In this document: positions 34,507 through 61,395 of the stretch, piece after piece
Position numbering within the stretch: position 1 is the first letter of the stretch
Layout: the number at the start of each line of letters is the position of its first letter
Source of the DNA: an uncultured Sphingomonadales bacterium
GTDB taxonomy: Bacteria > Pseudomonadota > Alphaproteobacteria > Sphingomonadales > Rhodothalassiaceae
Direction of reading: 5' to 3'
NCBI GenBank assembly: GCA_947499155.1
Contig: CANMND010000006.1
Coordinates: 62,001 to 126,000, forward strand
Length of the DNA stretch: 64,000 nucleotides
Translations under genes and position numbers: made by a program
Notes under the pieces: model-generated
What the model saw: the letters and a program-made list of their open reading frames with translations, nothing else
Databases searched by the model: none
What the model was told of the DNA's origin: nothing

Positions 34507-35058
34507 ATGATGCGATTTTTGATTCTCATATTTGTTATAGGGTGTACGGCTGTTACATGCTCCTTGCGTGCTCAGGAAGCGTCTCAGGTGGATATTGCTC
34601 CACAGCCGGATGATGCGCTTGAGCGCGGCCTCGCCCTTCTGGAAAGTGATAAGTCTGGGGACTGGGAGGCGGCGATTGGACTTCTTGAGGTGGCAGCATC
34701 ACAAGGTGCACCGGTTTATCTGTTAATTGCCGATAGCTGGCGGCAGGGCTTTGGGGTAGCGAGGAACCCTGGGAACGCCGAAAAATGGTATAAAATAGGT
34801 GCGGAAACCGGGGATGGATTTGCACAATTCGAACTCGGCCATATGTATCTTCATGGTGAAGAAATCCCGCAAGATATGGTGCAAGCGGTCTTTTATTTGC
34901 AGCTTTCCGTTGATCGGCTGCAAGATCCGATAATGAAAAGGCATGCGGAAACCGCCTTGTCCCGAGCCCGATTGGGGGCAGGGTGGGAAGACTGGCAGAA
35001 AGCTCGTGCTTTGATAAAAGAGTGGAAGCCCAAAAGCCTGACGGACCTTATAAACTGA
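34507..35058 (+). CDS. Exported Sel1-like repeat protein, 183 aa
   Basis: A signal peptide (MMRFLILIFVIGCTAVTCSL, cleaved near RAQ) precedes about four short alpha-hairpins of the Sel1/TPR type. The clearest is GDGFAQFELGHMYLHGEEIPQDMVQAVFYLQ, with the alternating Ala/Gly/Leu pattern, after an earlier DSWRQGFGVARNPGNAEKWYKIGAE unit. Such repeats mediate protein-protein contacts in the periplasm. The partner is unknown. Confidence 0.8.
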   Translation: MMRFLILIFVIGCTAVTCSLRAQEASQVDIAPQPDDALERGLALLESDKSGDWEAAIGLLEVAASQGAPVYLLIADSWRQGFGVARNPGNAEKWYKIGAETGDGFAQFELGHMYLHGEEIPQDMVQAVFYLQLSVDRLQDPIMKRHAETALSRARLGAGWEDWQKARALIKEWKPKSLTDLIN

Positions 35059-35070
35059 TGGTGCCAATGG

Positions 35071-35382
35071 TCACGCGGTGGGTCTGATTGTAATACCGTC
35101 TGGCGACAGGGGTTTGTCGCCATCCAGAGTCACAGAGGTAACCTTGTCCACTTGGGAAAAGGCCGGCCCGTTCCTTCATTTGGCAGTCATGATATCGAGT
35201 TTTTTGCCGGGGCCAACAAGCACGGCTTCAACCGACCCGTTATGCCTGTTCCGCACCCAGCCGTTCAGGCCAAGCTCTTGGGCTTCGCGGGCAAGCCATG
35301 CGCGATAGCCAACTCCTTGAACAAGACCTGTGATAAAAAGGTGACGATGTTCAGATTTATTTAATACACTTTTTTCTTGCAT
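35071..35382 (-). pseudogene. Acylphosphatase interrupted by an in-frame TGA
   Basis: The frame starts at ATG 35382 and shows the acylphosphatase active site: [14 protein letters not shown] (phosphate-binding Arg) and [13 protein letters not shown] (catalytic Asn). It meets a TGA at 35178-35176 after only 68 codons, but the same frame then continues with family-like sequence (RNGPAFSQVDKVTSVTLDGD ... ITIRPTA) to a normal stop at 35071. Without the TGA the protein would be about 103 aa, the expected size for this family. The TGA replaces a position that is often Cys in homologues (…AC-RRGP…), so a single TGC/TGT to TGA change explains it. The N-terminal 68 residues alone lack the last strand and helix. 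Confidence 0.8.
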
Positions 35383-35480: not shown

Positions 35481-36140
35481 ATGAGCCTTTATTCACAAAC
35501 CTGGATTCATCTTATGCTTTTTGGTTTTTGGATTGGAACTCATGTGGCGGTTGTTGCCCTGATGTGGCAGATGCGTTTCGCCGAAGGGCATGAGGAAGGA
35601 CAAAAACGTCTGACCGGTGCCATGGAATCTGTCGAGCGCCTGTCAAGGACAGCTTTTGTCTTGATGCTGCCAATGGGCCTGCAGCTTGCAGAAAATATGG
35701 GGCTGTTTCAGCTTGGCGGGATGGGAGCACTTGGCGTCTGGATCATCGCCATAATTTGGCTCATTGGCCTTTGGACGCAACCTCGGGGTACCAGAACCGA
35801 TATGGCCGTAGGCTTACGGGCTGCGCAAAGGGTTTTGATGGTAAGTGTTGGTCTGATCATGATCGGTACAGCCGCACTTTCCCTGTTGAATGGCAGTCCC
35901 ATTGCTCATGACTGGTTGTCAGGAAAGTTTGCACTTTATGGTGCGGCCCTGTTGCTTGTATTCGGAATTGAGTATGTCACCCAGCCCATACTGTATTCAG
36001 CAGCAGGTCCAGGTCTGCGACCGACTCGTCCTCTTGCGGAAGCGGTTAGTATCGCACTTCCAAAAGCGACTATCCTGTCAGTGCTGCTTTTGATCTGCCT
36101 GGGTGCTGCCAGCTATTTGGGCCTTGTTCAGCCGACCTGA
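35481..36140 (+). CDS. Integral membrane protein, 219 aa
   Basis: Unrecognised inner-membrane protein with six hydrophobic segments (for example IHLMLFGFWIGTHVAVVALM, GVWIIAIIWLIGLW, LMVSVGLIMIGTAALSLL, FALYGAALLLVFGIEYV, ATILSVLLLICLGAASYLGL). A His near the first helix (THVAVV) and the overall size resemble DUF2269/CopD-like membrane proteins, but no firm signature is present. The ribosome site GAAAGGA precedes the ATG. No functional neighbour. Confidence 0.75.
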   Translation: MSLYSQTWIHLMLFGFWIGTHVAVVALMWQMRFAEGHEEGQKRLTGAMESVERLSRTAFVLMLPMGLQLAENMGLFQLGGMGALGVWIIAIIWLIGLWTQPRGTRTDMAVGLRAAQRVLMVSVGLIMIGTAALSLLNGSPIAHDWLSGKFALYGAALLLVFGIEYVTQPILYSAAGPGLRPTRPLAEAVSIALPKATILSVLLLICLGAASYLGLVQPT

Positions 36141-39499: not shown

Positions 39500-40093
39500 T
39501 CAGGCTGCGTCAGTCCGACGACGCATGAAGGCTGCCAGCCCAAGTCCAAATCCGAAAATCAGGATAGTCGCGGGCAGGGGTATGTCTGTGACTGTGGAAA
39601 TCACATCAAGTTCGATACGAAAATCCCAGGTTCCGCCAAAACCGGAGCGGCTGGCTTGGTAGAACTGTCGGTATGTACCTTCAGTCCAGTTCAGACCATT
39701 TAAAGACATAGTTTGCACAGTCTCTGCGAGCCAGTTGACAGTAGCGGTTGTTGCCATAAGCGATGGTTCATCGAGACCACGGAGTATAGTCGCGCTGGTC
39801 CATGATGCAGGAGGTGCTGCTTCGAAAGACAGATTGCCAAACGTGTAGCGATAATTGACCAGCTCTGTACCGGCCTGAATATTGAAGACAAAGTCAGAAA
39901 CTGAGAAACATCCGACTTTGCTTGTCCAGCAATCGCTGCCTTCAATGATATTCGTGCCGACTCCCAAATCAAGCGGCGTACTGGCATTCAGCGGTCCATC
40001 AATATCTTCTACATAGTGAATGGGCGTGGCGCTGACGCCCGCGGGCATTGCAGCAAAGAGGATAATGGAAACAACTGCACTTAGGGTTTTCAT
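39500..40093 (-). CDS. VPLPA-CTERM-type exported protein (copy 1)
   Basis: Exported protein of 197 aa with ATG at 40093, preceded by AGAGGAAAAACC. It has a signal peptide (MKTLSAVVSIILFAAMPAGVSA). A beta-rich body opens PIHYVEDIDGPLNASTPLDLGVG and has a Cys pair (SDCWTSKVGC). The C-terminal sorting signal is IPLPATILIFGFGLGLAAFM followed by RRR. The PLPA motif, helix and Arg cluster match the exosortase-dependent VPLPA-CTERM class. A paralogue lies directly upstream on the same strand. No exosortase is in the window. Function unknown, presumably a surface or matrix protein. Confidence 0.82.
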   Translation of the reverse strand: MKTLSAVVSIILFAAMPAGVSATPIHYVEDIDGPLNASTPLDLGVGTNIIEGSDCWTSKVGCFSVSDFVFNIQAGTELVNYRYTFGNLSFEAAPPASWTSATILRGLDEPSLMATTATVNWLAETVQTMSLNGLNWTEGTYRQFYQASRSGFGGTWDFRIELDVISTVTDIPLPATILIFGFGLGLAAFMRRRTDAA

Positions 40094-40290
40094 GGTTTTT
40101 CCTCTGATCATCTTACTTGTTCTTATTCAAGCAATTAACGCGCCACATTATTTTGATGTTTAATATCAACGTGTTACGCTAATTCTGAATTAAGCCTCTT
40201 AAGGGTTTGTATAAATTTCTTACAGTTTTTACTGCAAACAGAAGCGAACAATCTCTTCATTGCCGCCTCTGGCTGCTCGATTGCATCAAG

Positions 40291-40896
40291 TCATGCTTTT
40301 ATACAGGTCATGCGTCGGCGTGCCAGTCCCATAAGGCCAAGGCCCATTCCAAAGAACAGAATAGTTGCAGGGAGCGGAATTTCGGCAAGGGCGGGTGCTA
40401 TATCAAGTTCAATCCGGAAGTCCCAGGATCCAAAAACACCTGTTCGCGAGCCTATGACAAACTGGCGATAATAGCCCGAGCCCAGAGGGGCAAGAAGATC
40501 AACAGCCAGTGTCTGCTCCTGACCAAGTAGCCAGTCACCAACATTGGAAATATTTAACCCCGGCTTGCCCATGCGTTTAATGGCAACCATGCCTTGCCAT
40601 CTGGGGAAGCTATGCCAGTAAAGAGTATCAACATCGCCGATGATGTAACGATAACCGGTCATTTGCATGTTTTCGGGAATTTCAAAGGCAAAATTCGTGA
40701 GTGTGTTACAGCCGATAATCGGAATGCCCCAACAACCGGTTCCCGTGACAATATTGGTCCCAGAGCCCATAACCAGCGGAGTGGAAGCTGAAAGTCGGCC
40801 GTCAACAGCTTCATGATAGGTAATAGGCGCAGCCTCAGCTTTCCCAGACAGACCCACACATAAAGCTACGGCAATCAAAATTCCCAAGATTCTCAT
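40291..40896 (-). CDS. VPLPA-CTERM-type exported protein (copy 2)
   Basis: Paralogue of the downstream gene, 201 aa. Signal peptide MRILGILIAVALCVGLSGKAEA, then PITYHEAVDGRLSASTPLVMGSG, the corresponding Cys pair (TGCWGIPIIGC), the motif SRTGVFGSWDFRIELDI shared with copy 1, and the C-terminal IPLPATILFFGMGLGLMGLA followed by RRR. The two genes share ends and the Cys spacing but have a diverged centre, which suggests an old tandem duplication. 197 bases separate them, so each may have its own promoter. Confidence 0.82.
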   Translation of the reverse strand: MRILGILIAVALCVGLSGKAEAAPITYHEAVDGRLSASTPLVMGSGTNIVTGTGCWGIPIIGCNTLTNFAFEIPENMQMTGYRYIIGDVDTLYWHSFPRWQGMVAIKRMGKPGLNISNVGDWLLGQEQTLAVDLLAPLGSGYYRQFVIGSRTGVFGSWDFRIELDIAPALAEIPLPATILFFGMGLGLMGLARRRMTCIKA

Positions 40897-57486: not shown

Positions 57487-58029
57487 TTAAGCACCTTCAT
57501 CAAAGGGTGTAACAATATCGTCCACTTCCGGTGGCAATGGGCTGCGGATAACGGTTGTTGCATCGCTGTGCGGTGATGGTGGGGGCTGTGATGGTGCCAA
57601 AGGACGGTTTTGCCTTGGCGCCGTCGTGAATATGGGGGTAAGCGCACCGGCATCACCCGCCCATTCCTTCAGTTCAAGCTCCAGCCGGATCAGGATGGGG
57701 TGGCCTTGCGGATCCGTCTTAATCAGATTTTTGGTGATGCGTTTGATGATGAAGTCACCTTCATCGCGGCCCGATCGCCACACCACATCCACCACGCGGC
57801 GCGCACGCTGGGCCTGACTAAGACGATCACTTAACGTCTGCGGGTCGCCAAAGCGGGCGTAAAGCTTCGCCGATATCGTCAGGGTGCGCAGGCCGTCGCC
57901 TGTGTCCTGCAATTTGGGTTGAGCTTCCAGAACGTCATGTTCAGGGAATTGAATGTCCAGCTCATCCTGAAAGCCGTGCAGTGCTACGACTTCCAATTCC
58001 ACGCCGCCGATGGTCAATATGCCGCTCAT
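57487..58029 (-). CDS. Phage tail protein U
   Basis: P2 gpU family tail-completion/terminator protein, 180 aa. Core sequence LHGFQDELDIQFPEHDVLEAQPKLQDTGDG and LTISAKLYARFGDPQTLSDRLSQA, then VVWRSGRDEGDFIIKRI. A Pro/Ser-rich C-terminal extension of about 50 residues is longer than in P2. Overlaps the tape-measure stop by 4 bases. Confidence 0.85.
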   Translation of the reverse strand: MSGILTIGGVELEVVALHGFQDELDIQFPEHDVLEAQPKLQDTGDGLRTLTISAKLYARFGDPQTLSDRLSQAQRARRVVDVVWRSGRDEGDFIIKRITKNLIKTDPQGHPILIRLELELKEWAGDAGALTPIFTTAPRQNRPLAPSQPPPSPHSDATTVIRSPLPPEVDDIVTPFDEGA

Positions 58030-60881
58030 GCAAAATCGCTCCGGGCATCCGTGTCCATGGCATCGCGGATCAGGGCGAGCAGTTCCTGATCATGGTCACG
58101 CAGCGCGCGCATGATTTGGTCTTTCAGGCCCTCGTCGCCGCTCTCCCCATCAATTGCGCCTGCATGGATGGTCACTTGCGGCTTATAGGCGATTTGCACG
58201 GTGACGGGTTGCGCCCCGCTATGGCTGCTTCGCCCTTCGGCCGGTAGCGATGCGATTTGCGGGGCCTGTACAATACTTGCCTGCGGCACAATGGGCACAG
58301 CCAATGCGGCCCCACTGGCGGCAAGCGTCACGCCTGTCGCCGCCACCGCCCCGCGCACGGCATTAACAAGGGGCGCAGGGGTTATTGTTTCAGCGACGGT
58401 TTCAATAAGGCGGATCCGGTTCAGGTCACGCAGCGGCCCCACTTTCGCCGGGCTGAAGGGCAGGAAGTTGCGGACGTTTTGGACGATTTCTTCAATGGTT
58501 TCGATCGGCTTTGATGCAAAAGCTTTCATGCCTTCCCACAAGGAAGAGATGATTTTGCTGCCTGCTTCGAACAGGTTGATACCGAAGACGAATTGAAACA
58601 GCGCATTAAAGCTGCGCGCCAAAAGCGCAAGCGGGTTGAAGCTTAAGAGAATGCGACCAATGCCGACCAGAAAGCCATCCGCAAATATCGCCTTGATGGT
58701 CTCGATAAGACTGCCGAAAAAGCCGGTAATGCGGGACCATATCTGCCCAATACCACTGAACAGTGCGCCCACCATATTGGCGACAAAGCCGATGAGCCGG
58801 ACGGGCAGCAGGACAGTCCAGCTTAGGATCGTGCCAAACACCCGGCCAAAGCTGTGGCCCAATTGGGTAGCGCCCTCGCTTGCCTCATGTGCAGGGGTGA
58901 GTAAGTCTGCAATAAAGCCGCCAATGGCGCGGATGGGAGCAAGAATGGCGCTGAACACCTGTCCCAGCACGGCAAAGGCGGGGGCGAGTGGTGCCAATCC
59001 TTCGCGTAGCCCGCTAAAAACGCCCTGGAAGAACGATTTAATCGGTCCCCAAAACCGGAAAATCAGCAATGCGGCCCCTGCGATAACGGCGACGGCCAGA
59101 CCGACAGGGTTGGCGGCCAGCGCCAGCCCGATGGCACGAATGCCGCCCCCCACCAGCCTTAAACCGCCCGCAAGTCGGGTGAGCAGGCCACCCGCCATGG
59201 AGCGAAAAGCCGTGAACGATGAAAAGGCCGCTCGTATGTTGGCAAGAAAGGCCAATGTATTTACATGCAGGGCAAGGGTGAGTGCTGTAATGCGTGCAGG
59301 CAGGCCAATAATTGCCCCCATGCCCGCTTGACGTAAGGAAAGCGCCCAGGCCCGCGCCCCCGTTGCCGCCGCTTGCAGACCCAGACTGGCGCGTAGGGCC
59401 TGAAATTGCAAAAACGCGCCCAGTCCGCCACGAAATGCCACAGCCTCCATGGCTGACAATATGGCTCCGCGTAATGCGCCAAAGGCGTGGACGGGGCCGC
59501 TAACCAGCGCTTGTCCAAAGATGGACAACCCGCCGCGCACCACTGCCATTTGTCCGCCCATGAAGACAAGCGCCCGGCCAACCCCTGCGGCACCAATGCC
59601 GACATAGCCGAAGGTGGTGGACAAAAGTCCAACGGCCAGCAGCACCGGCGCCACAATGGCCAGCAACCCGCCAAGGGACGCAATGGTGACAAGCAGGCCT
59701 TCGCTTAAAACCGGATGCGCCTGCGCCCAGCTGTCCAGCCAGCCAATCAGGTCACGAGCGGTTTCATTGAGCGCAATCAGCATCGGCTCAAGCTGATCGC
59801 CAAGCGTGATGAACAGGCTTTCCGTCGCGCTTTTTAGCTCTAAAAACGAGCCTGTTAAATTATCGCCCATGATGCGCGCCGTACGGGCGGCCAAATCATT
59901 CACGTCTTTGAGGCTGTCAAAATACTCACCAAGTGCGCCGTTACCCGCCTGCTTTATCAGCGCATCCGCCGCACTGGCGACTTCAAGGCCGAAAACTTCC
60001 TGAAGTTTTGCAGCCTTGAAGGCCTCATCACCGTTGCGGGCCAAGCCAGCATCCAGGTCTTTCAGGATATCCAGAATGGGACGAAACTGGCGCGTTGCCG
60101 CGTCAAATGCCGTGACGCCAAGGCTGGCCAAAGCCGCTTGCGCCTCACCCGTAGGCGCTGCAAGACGGCTTATGATTGCATTCAGCGATGTGCCCGCGCG
60201 GCTGCCTTTAATGCCGGCATCACTTAGCTTTGCGACCAAGCCTACGGTTTCAGCCAGACTGATATTATTGCGATGCGCCGTTAGACCGGCAAAGCTTACC
60301 GCCGACCCTAAATCACGCAACCCGGTGGCCGATGATGTGAAGCCTGCGGTGAGAAGATCGCCGATATTGCCGAATTGCCCCGCCTGAAGCCCAAAGCTTT
60401 TCATGATCGCAGCGGTAATTTCGACTGTGTCTGAAAGCCCCACATTCGCCGCTTTGGCAAGGTCGAGGGCAGGCGGCATGGCGGACAGAATTTCATTGGT
60501 TTTAAAGCCCGCAAGACCGAATTCTTTCATCGCCCCTGCGGCCTGGCTGGCGCTGAATTGGGTTGTTGCACCCAATTCCCGCGCTTGCCCGCGCAGCTTT
60601 GCCAGGTCTTCACCCGATGCTTGGGTGACAGCCTGAACGGAGGCCATAGCCTCGCTGAAATTCGCCGACGCTTTGACCGGGGCCGCAAGCGCTCCCGTGA
60701 TACCTGCCGCCGACGCGCCCAATAACGCGCCTGCCGCTGCCGCACCCTGTCCCCATTTAACAAGCCCGCGTGCGGCACCGGCCACGCGGTCCAGCCCCTG
60801 CACCGCCTGTTGCATTTGACGGATGGGGCCGGACAATTGGTCGATGGCCTGAACCAGAACGGAAAGCTTGAACAATGACAT
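58026..60881 (-). CDS. Tail tape measure protein
   Basis: 951 aa from the ATG at 60881 (MSLFKLSVLVQAIDQLSGPIRQMQQAVQGL), which has AGAGGTG upstream; the frame is open to 60971. It shows the P2 gpT/TP901 layout: a coiled-coil N-terminus, the conserved TP901 core (FSEAMASVQAVTQASGEDLAKLRGQARELGATTQFSASQAA at about residues 85-125), several long hydrophobic stretches in the centre (residues about 400-650), and a Pro-rich C-terminal segment. Its length sets tail length, predicting a medium tail of roughly P2 size. Confidence 0.93.
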   Translation of the reverse strand: MSLFKLSVLVQAIDQLSGPIRQMQQAVQGLDRVAGAARGLVKWGQGAAAAGALLGASAAGITGALAAPVKASANFSEAMASVQAVTQASGEDLAKLRGQARELGATTQFSASQAAGAMKEFGLAGFKTNEILSAMPPALDLAKAANVGLSDTVEITAAIMKSFGLQAGQFGNIGDLLTAGFTSSATGLRDLGSAVSFAGLTAHRNNISLAETVGLVAKLSDAGIKGSRAGTSLNAIISRLAAPTGEAQAALASLGVTAFDAATRQFRPILDILKDLDAGLARNGDEAFKAAKLQEVFGLEVASAADALIKQAGNGALGEYFDSLKDVNDLAARTARIMGDNLTGSFLELKSATESLFITLGDQLEPMLIALNETARDLIGWLDSWAQAHPVLSEGLLVTIASLGGLLAIVAPVLLAVGLLSTTFGYVGIGAAGVGRALVFMGGQMAVVRGGLSIFGQALVSGPVHAFGALRGAILSAMEAVAFRGGLGAFLQFQALRASLGLQAAATGARAWALSLRQAGMGAIIGLPARITALTLALHVNTLAFLANIRAAFSSFTAFRSMAGGLLTRLAGGLRLVGGGIRAIGLALAANPVGLAVAVIAGAALLIFRFWGPIKSFFQGVFSGLREGLAPLAPAFAVLGQVFSAILAPIRAIGGFIADLLTPAHEASEGATQLGHSFGRVFGTILSWTVLLPVRLIGFVANMVGALFSGIGQIWSRITGFFGSLIETIKAIFADGFLVGIGRILLSFNPLALLARSFNALFQFVFGINLFEAGSKIISSLWEGMKAFASKPIETIEEIVQNVRNFLPFSPAKVGPLRDLNRIRLIETVAETITPAPLVNAVRGAVAATGVTLAASGAALAVPIVPQASIVQAPQIASLPAEGRSSHSGAQPVTVQIAYKPQVTIHAGAIDGESGDEGLKDQIMRALRDHDQELLALIRDAMDTDARSDFA

Positions 60882-60962
60882 GCGCGCAGCACCTCTCAAT
60901 TTTGAGAAGCATTGCGCGTTGGCGGATGATTTTATGAGGTGAAGTGGTTCATTGAATAAAAA

Positions 60963-60982
60963 GCCCGCCATTGCTGACGGGC
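60963..60982 (-). terminator. Terminator-like hairpin between E' and the tape measure gene
   Basis: On the minus strand GCCCG and CGGGC pair around a 10-nt loop and run into TTTTTATTC. It lies 3 bases after the E' stop and 80 bases before the tape-measure start, inside the operon. Confidence 0.65.
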
Positions 60983-60985
60983 CTT

Positions 60986-61395
60986 TTATCCTTCCATCTC
61001 CGCCTGCATCGCAGTGCGGCGCTCACGCCGGTAATCGCTGTAGGCTTCAATCTCGACCAACAGTTCATCCCACGCCATGTCCATCAGTTCGGCGTGGGTG
61101 AAGCCGCCGTTTATTCTTAGTTCAGCGAAATGGCTTTCAGTGAGGATGTGCCGTTTCCCATGACCGCCCCTTGCAGGGCCAAGACGTCGGCTAACTCCAT
61201 TTCGCCCACCTCTTCATAGGTGACAGGCGCACCGTCGATGGTGGCGAGGATCGAGACAAGCGCCTGCCCAATGCCCATGGGATCGTCCGCGCCAGCCAGA
61301 CGCGCGGCCTGTCGCAGGTGCTTGCCCTTCGCCGTCGCGATGGCGACCTTTTTGCCGGACGGCAGGGTGAGTTCGGTCTTGTCAGCTTTCGTCAT
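60986..61395 (-). CDS. Tail assembly chaperone fusion E-E' by -1 frameshift
   Basis: P2 makes an extended form of gpE by a -1 ribosomal slip. Here gene E (61395-61117) contains the classic heptamer GGGAAAC at 61159-61153 in the right phase (ATG GGA AAC). After a -1 shift the frame stays open through RHILTESHFAELRINGGFTH, AELMDMAWDELLVEIEAYSD, YRRERRTAMQAEMEG to TAA at 60986. The E' part resembles the GpE tail protein family. The fusion would be about 136 aa. Slippage efficiency is not visible from sequence. Confidence 0.8.
61117..61395 (-). CDS. Phage tail assembly protein E
   Basis: Unshifted product of 92 aa, P2 gpE-like chaperone for the tape measure protein: TELTLPSGKKVAIATAKGKHLRQAARLAGADDP at the start and EVGEMELADVLALQGAVMGNG near the end. 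It contains the slippery site four residues beyond GAV. The ATG overlaps the stop of the upstream Gp49-like gene (ATGA). Confidence 0.88.
   Translation of the reverse strand: MTKADKTELTLPSGKKVAIATAKGKHLRQAARLAGADDPMGIGQALVSILATIDGAPVTYEEVGEMELADVLALQGAVMGNGTSSLKAISLN

Follow-up and report, generated by a model that had tools for sequence, protein, structure and literature searches.

An acylphosphatase gene interrupted by one TGA at a near-invariant cysteine codon in an uncultured Sphingomonadales bacterium, probably a young pseudogene

The window analysed here, a 64,000-nucleotide stretch of a draft genome of an uncultured Sphingomonadales bacterium, contains an acylphosphatase gene, acyP, whose reading frame holds a single internal TGA (Table 1). 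This raises the question of whether the TGA ends the protein, is an error in the sequence, or is read as an amino acid. As described below, acyP most likely encoded a dispensable enzyme and is a unitary pseudogene of recent date, disabled by a real single nonsense codon.

Extent of the frame and the residue at the stop site

The frame begins with the ATG at 35382-35380 and ends with a final TGA at 35073-35071 on the minus strand, and it is unbroken on both sides of codon 69. An earlier note on this DNA had reported a single in-frame TGA at 35178-35176, with a continuous frame and a fit to the family on either side. These positions proved exact, within a frame of 104 codons, and the Pfam model PF00708 (Acylphosphatase) matched residues 14-86 across the stop with 77.9 bits when the TGA was read as Cys (cut-off 22.5 bits). 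When the whole 2.8 Mb genome was searched with PF00708 reading through stops, the acyP locus scored 75.7 bits with one TGA inside, and no other match, and hence no second acylphosphatase, was found. The closest NCBIfam model, NF010996, gave 92.4 bits, below its cut-off of 98. Among solved structures, 29 distinct sequences matched acyP at E <= 0.001, the best being 2w4d and 1v3z. An acylphosphatase frame with one internal TGA is present here far beyond chance.

Table 1. Positions of the interrupted gene, its parts and its neighbours in the window
Feature	Coordinates	Strand	Remarks
acyP, interrupted acylphosphatase gene	35071..35382	-	104 codons including internal and final TGA
Internal TGA, codon 69	35176..35178	-	aligned with Cys in 104/108 relatives
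Pre-stop segment, 68 codons	35179..35382	-	VQGVGYR and GWVRN motifs, catalytic Arg and Asn
Post-stop segment, 34 codons	35074..35175	-	in frame, family resemblance retained; Ile at position 97
Divergent neighbour, 219 aa, hydrophobic by eye (membrane protein)	35481..36140	+	adjoins acyP in G004 and G005
Sel1-repeat protein, neighbour on other side	34507..35058	+	present in both genus-mates

Acylphosphatase catalysis depends on an Arg and an Asn. Arg27 and Asn45 of acyP, which we take to be these catalytic residues, are both retained, and each is present in 108 of 108 relatives. The gene resembles other members of its family in matching PF00708 across the TGA and in keeping the VQGVGYR loop and the GWVRN motif, but it differs from them in its interruption, and an active enzyme is not expected. 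The frame is not open through the whole acylphosphatase domain, as the TGA stands at codon 69. As in a unitary pseudogene, the gene is disabled, is present in a single copy and has no intact paralogue.

Residues aligned to codon 69 were compared in 108 relatives, comprising 28 from the same order and 80 from named genomes. The set was drawn from 109 loci (L003-L111), with L024 excluded as it does not have the VQGV motif; the 29 order loci were the best-scoring ones and the 80 others the best among the matches listed, and both groups are biased to conserved sequences. The site was occupied by Cys in 104, Ala in 2, Tyr in 1 and Met in 1, and the earlier remark that homologues often have Cys here was an understatement. 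Codons were counted in 112 frames (TGC 86, TGT 20, other 6), a count that includes three duplicate loci (L130, L131 and L133) and one stray frame of L066, all of which were dropped from the set of 108. Both Cys codons, TGC and TGT, are a single base away from TGA. The earlier note had proposed comparing the codon in close relatives; the two genus-mates, G001 and G002, offer no acylphosphatase in which to read it, and within the family it is TGC (Cys) in G003 and G005 and GCC (Ala) in G004. Since Ala also occupies the aligned position in the solved structure 2w4d, as it does in G004, the Cys at this site is conserved but not catalytic, and selenium there would therefore serve no evident purpose.

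Decoding of the TGA

Selenoprotein genes are typically recognised by a TGA that replaces a near-invariant Cys codon and is flanked by conserved sequence, as is the case here. The genome was searched for the selenocysteine machinery: selA had no match, the best selB match reached 112.3 bits against a cut-off of 242.25, as other translation GTPases would give, and the best selD match reached 64.1 bits against a cut-off of 125. A search for tRNA-Sec, with scores computed for 150 of 374 first-look candidates, returned two matches barely above the 47-bit cut-off (48.4 and 48.2). Both were rejected as tRNA-Sec, as ARAGORN called them tRNA-Ser with anticodons TGA and CGA, and the remaining six of the eight loci read as tRNA-Ser, -Leu, -Tyr and -Gly. 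The tRNA-Sec RNA family had matches in all 14 control genomes; cut-offs were passed there by 5 genomes for tRNA-Sec, 1 for selA, 2 for selB and 2 for selD. The cut-off for tRNA-Sec is probably loose enough to admit other tRNAs. RNA starting at the TGA did not fold better than shuffled sequences, whether 60 nt (z 0.95; 167 of 200 shuffles folded at least as well) or 40 nt (z 0.62; 141 of 200) were taken. The earlier note had seen no clear selenocysteine hairpin, which the shuffles bear out, and the search for selA, selB and selC that it proposed came back negative, the tRNA-Sec matches above the cut-off being tRNA-Ser. On the outcome of these gene and tRNA searches and of the folding comparison, selenocysteine at codon 69 was rejected as far as the draft is complete.

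We also considered whether TGA might be read by another tRNA. The genome contains 45 tRNA matches, 44 of which ARAGORN also called as tRNAs; TCA was not among their anticodons, and the one remaining match is truncated at the start of a contig. As tRNA-Ile (GAT) and tRNA-Ala (TGC) were not among the called tRNAs, a few tRNA genes are absent from the draft and the list is incomplete; the missing genes probably sit in unassembled rRNA operons. Release factor RF2 (prfB) was found with 517.4 bits (cut-off 370). Genome-wide reassignment of TGA was rejected on RF2 together with the tRNA set, in which no TCA anticodon occurs at the 44 called places. The base 3' of the TGA in acyP is A rather than the C that makes UGA leaky.

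Gene order in relatives and loss across the order

Neither of the two genus-mates, G001 (100% complete) and G002 (98%), had an acylphosphatase match by protein or by profile, and neither had a match to the 219-aa membrane protein that is the divergent neighbour of acyP. Of 14 window genes tested, 12 were found in both genomes in the same order, and acyP and the membrane gene were the two missing. No remnant of either gene was detected between sel1 and DUF6134 in these genomes, where the best DNA match in the interval was 21 bases long (E 0.002) and lay outside both genes. The interval holds instead a Crp/Fnr-type regulator, identified by Pfam on the G001 copy, to which the corresponding stretch of G002 is 71% identical over 631 bases. 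This regulator had no match in the window, and it stands beside the block in G001, G002, G004 and G005.

G005, of the same family and 64% complete, carries parA, bax, DUF6134, crp, the membrane gene and acyP, and G004 carries crp, the membrane gene and acyP; acyP is open, with no stop, in both. The membrane protein, which has no Pfam or NCBIfam match, is 57% identical in G005 and 34-35% in G004. Since these two genomes share the arrangement crp - membrane gene - acyP with acyP open, having acyP next to the membrane gene appears to be the earlier arrangement. The pairing is not constant within the family, as some 37 kb separate the two genes in G003, and G006 (89% complete) had no acylphosphatase match. 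The simplest history would start from an ancestral block of crp, membrane gene and acyP: the genus-mates would have lost the last two of these genes, and the lineage of the window would have lost first crp at this position and later a functional acyP.

Acylphosphatase was also missing from much of the order. In a sample of 246 genomes, 113 had a match at E <= 0.001 (112 above the cut-off) and 133 had none; among the good genomes the corresponding figures were 101 and 122 of 223. Some of the matches sit in frames of 743 to 803 codons, presumably HypF, and free-standing acylphosphatases are therefore rarer still. Among the matches listed, a stop inside the match occurred only in the genome under study (G000) and in G228, from another family of the order (L201, 486-614). 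The latter has its stop where relatives have Trp and a His in place of the catalytic Arg, and it is an independently wrecked copy.

Signs of decay and the explanation of the stop

If acyP were no longer under selection, changes might have accumulated in it. No closely related intact copy that could be used for a selection test was found, and acyP was compared with the 108 relatives, among them its homologues in G003, G004 and G005. At positions conserved in at least 80% of the 108 relatives, the window matched 24 of 26 before the stop (exceptions 48 and 62) and 4 of 5 after it; the exception, position 97, is Ile in the window, Phe in 107 relatives and Leu in one. At least two violations before the stop, the count of the window, were seen in 45 of 108 relatives, and at least one after the stop in 13 of 108. 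Identity to G005, G003 and G004 was 29, 26 and 33 of 55 positions before the stop, and these three shared 27, 28 and 30 of 55 among themselves. After the stop, the window was identical to them at 8, 10 and 9 of 31 positions (26-32%), and they to one another at 14, 15 and 22 of 31 (45-71%).

When other relatives served as outgroups, the window had on average 4.7, 6.7 and 6.4 unique changes after the stop versus 3.8 in G005, 2.8 in G003 and 3.5 in G004; before the stop the means were 6.9, 3.9 and 5.9 versus 5.5, 8.3 and 5.0, respectively. The post-stop segment agreed with the wider consensus at 12 of 34 positions, and agreement was no better in 16 of 28 relatives from the order and in 45 of all 108. 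The terminal branch of the window ranked 11th of 109 and its root-to-tip distance 70th of 109. Codon scores, expressed per codon, were 0.25 in the pre-stop and 0.06 in the post-stop segment, the latter falling at the 10th-25th percentile of 35-codon pieces from long frames. No second stop or frameshift was present in the frame, a test to which 34 post-stop codons give little power. These results are mixed and leave two readings, a recent mutation or a segment too short for decay to be visible.

We propose that an ordinary bacterial acylphosphatase gene took one nonsense change at a Cys codon, which to judge from the relatives would have been TGC or TGT. Translation should stop after 68 residues, leaving out the end of a small domain, and from what is known of the fold the truncated protein would not be expected to work as an enzyme. 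The stop would be real in the living strain, with no product made. Both genus-mates are without acyP and the divergent neighbour is gone from them as well, which argues that the enzyme is dispensable in this lineage. There are 29 single-base routes to a stop in the frame and just one of them falls at the Cys codon, a mild coincidence under nonsense mutation. The earlier suggestion of a fresh nonsense mutation or a sequencing error fits this evidence, the checks for recoding having been negative.

The main rival is the second of these, a sequencing or assembly error in a gene that is really intact and has a sense codon at the site. A change of one base would suffice, as the rest of the frame is intact, and the genome is assembled as a draft, in 25 contigs; but the site has no long homopolymer, completeness is 100 and contamination 0.09, and real loss is made plausible by the departure at position 97 and by the absence of acyP from the genus-mates and much of the order. 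That absence, in the genus-mates and in 133 of 246 order genomes, shifts the balance from error to real loss, and we regard an error as unlikely. According to PMC2277376, most interrupted coding sequences correspond to authentic mutations. Read-through, by which a suppressor or variant tRNA that reads TGA as Cys or Trp, or a near-cognate leak, would yield some full-length enzyme, is less probable still. Basal UGA read-through is conceivable from the sequence alone, and PMC7609411 describes anaerobic bacteria, Proteobacteria among them, that have selC*-type tRNA-Cys, in some cases with the anticodon UCA; set against this are the 44 called tRNAs, RF2 and the A that follows the TGA.

A selenoprotein, with the TGA read as selenocysteine at a Cys/Sec site, would account for a TGA that falls at a near-invariant Cys between conserved flanks, a codon that random nonsense would strike by only that one of its 29 paths. 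In this respect acyP does resemble bacterial selenoproteins with Cys homologues. It differs from them in that its genome has no selA, selB or selD above cut-off and no true tRNA-Sec, that the RNA after the TGA forms no hairpin better than shuffles and that the Cys is not catalytic; moreover, among the matches listed, the only other stop, in G228, lies at a different position. As far as the draft is complete, we consider a selenoprotein very unlikely. It is scarcely more probable that some route hidden from view in the draft decodes UGA as Cys, Trp or Sec, so that acylphosphatase would be made at a low level or under regulation through the UGA. In archaea, a fusion of a SelD-like protein with an acylphosphatase-like domain is described in PMC4210487.

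The young pseudogene that we favour resembles other bacterial unitary pseudogenes and interrupted coding sequences in having an in-frame stop in a single-copy gene that is dispensable in relatives. It differs from those described in PMC2277376 in that there is no intact allele in a sister strain with which to compare it; a table in the same source includes an acylphosphatase among the interrupted genes of the M. tuberculosis complex. The locus would show the loss of an enzyme gene in progress, in a genus in which the two other species examined are already without it, and no new mechanism is needed to explain it. It also carries a warning, as a TGA at a near-invariant Cys resembles a selenoprotein, yet no part of the known machinery was found in the genome.

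When the window was scanned for coding frames interrupted by a single stop, two pairs came up, at 58515-58823 and 60336-60722, and both were taken as spurious because they are antisense to a phage tape-measure gene. At its threshold the scan missed acyP; its sensitivity is therefore low, and little can be concluded from it on further genes of this kind. Phage tail genes occupy 57487-61395 on the minus strand and include the tape-measure protein of 981 aa. Two adjacent PEP-CTERM proteins are encoded at 39500-40111 and 40291-40896 (Pfam 22.5 and 20.9 bits, cut-off 20.7), and both match the same place in the G001 and G002 stretches, so that one copy is present there.
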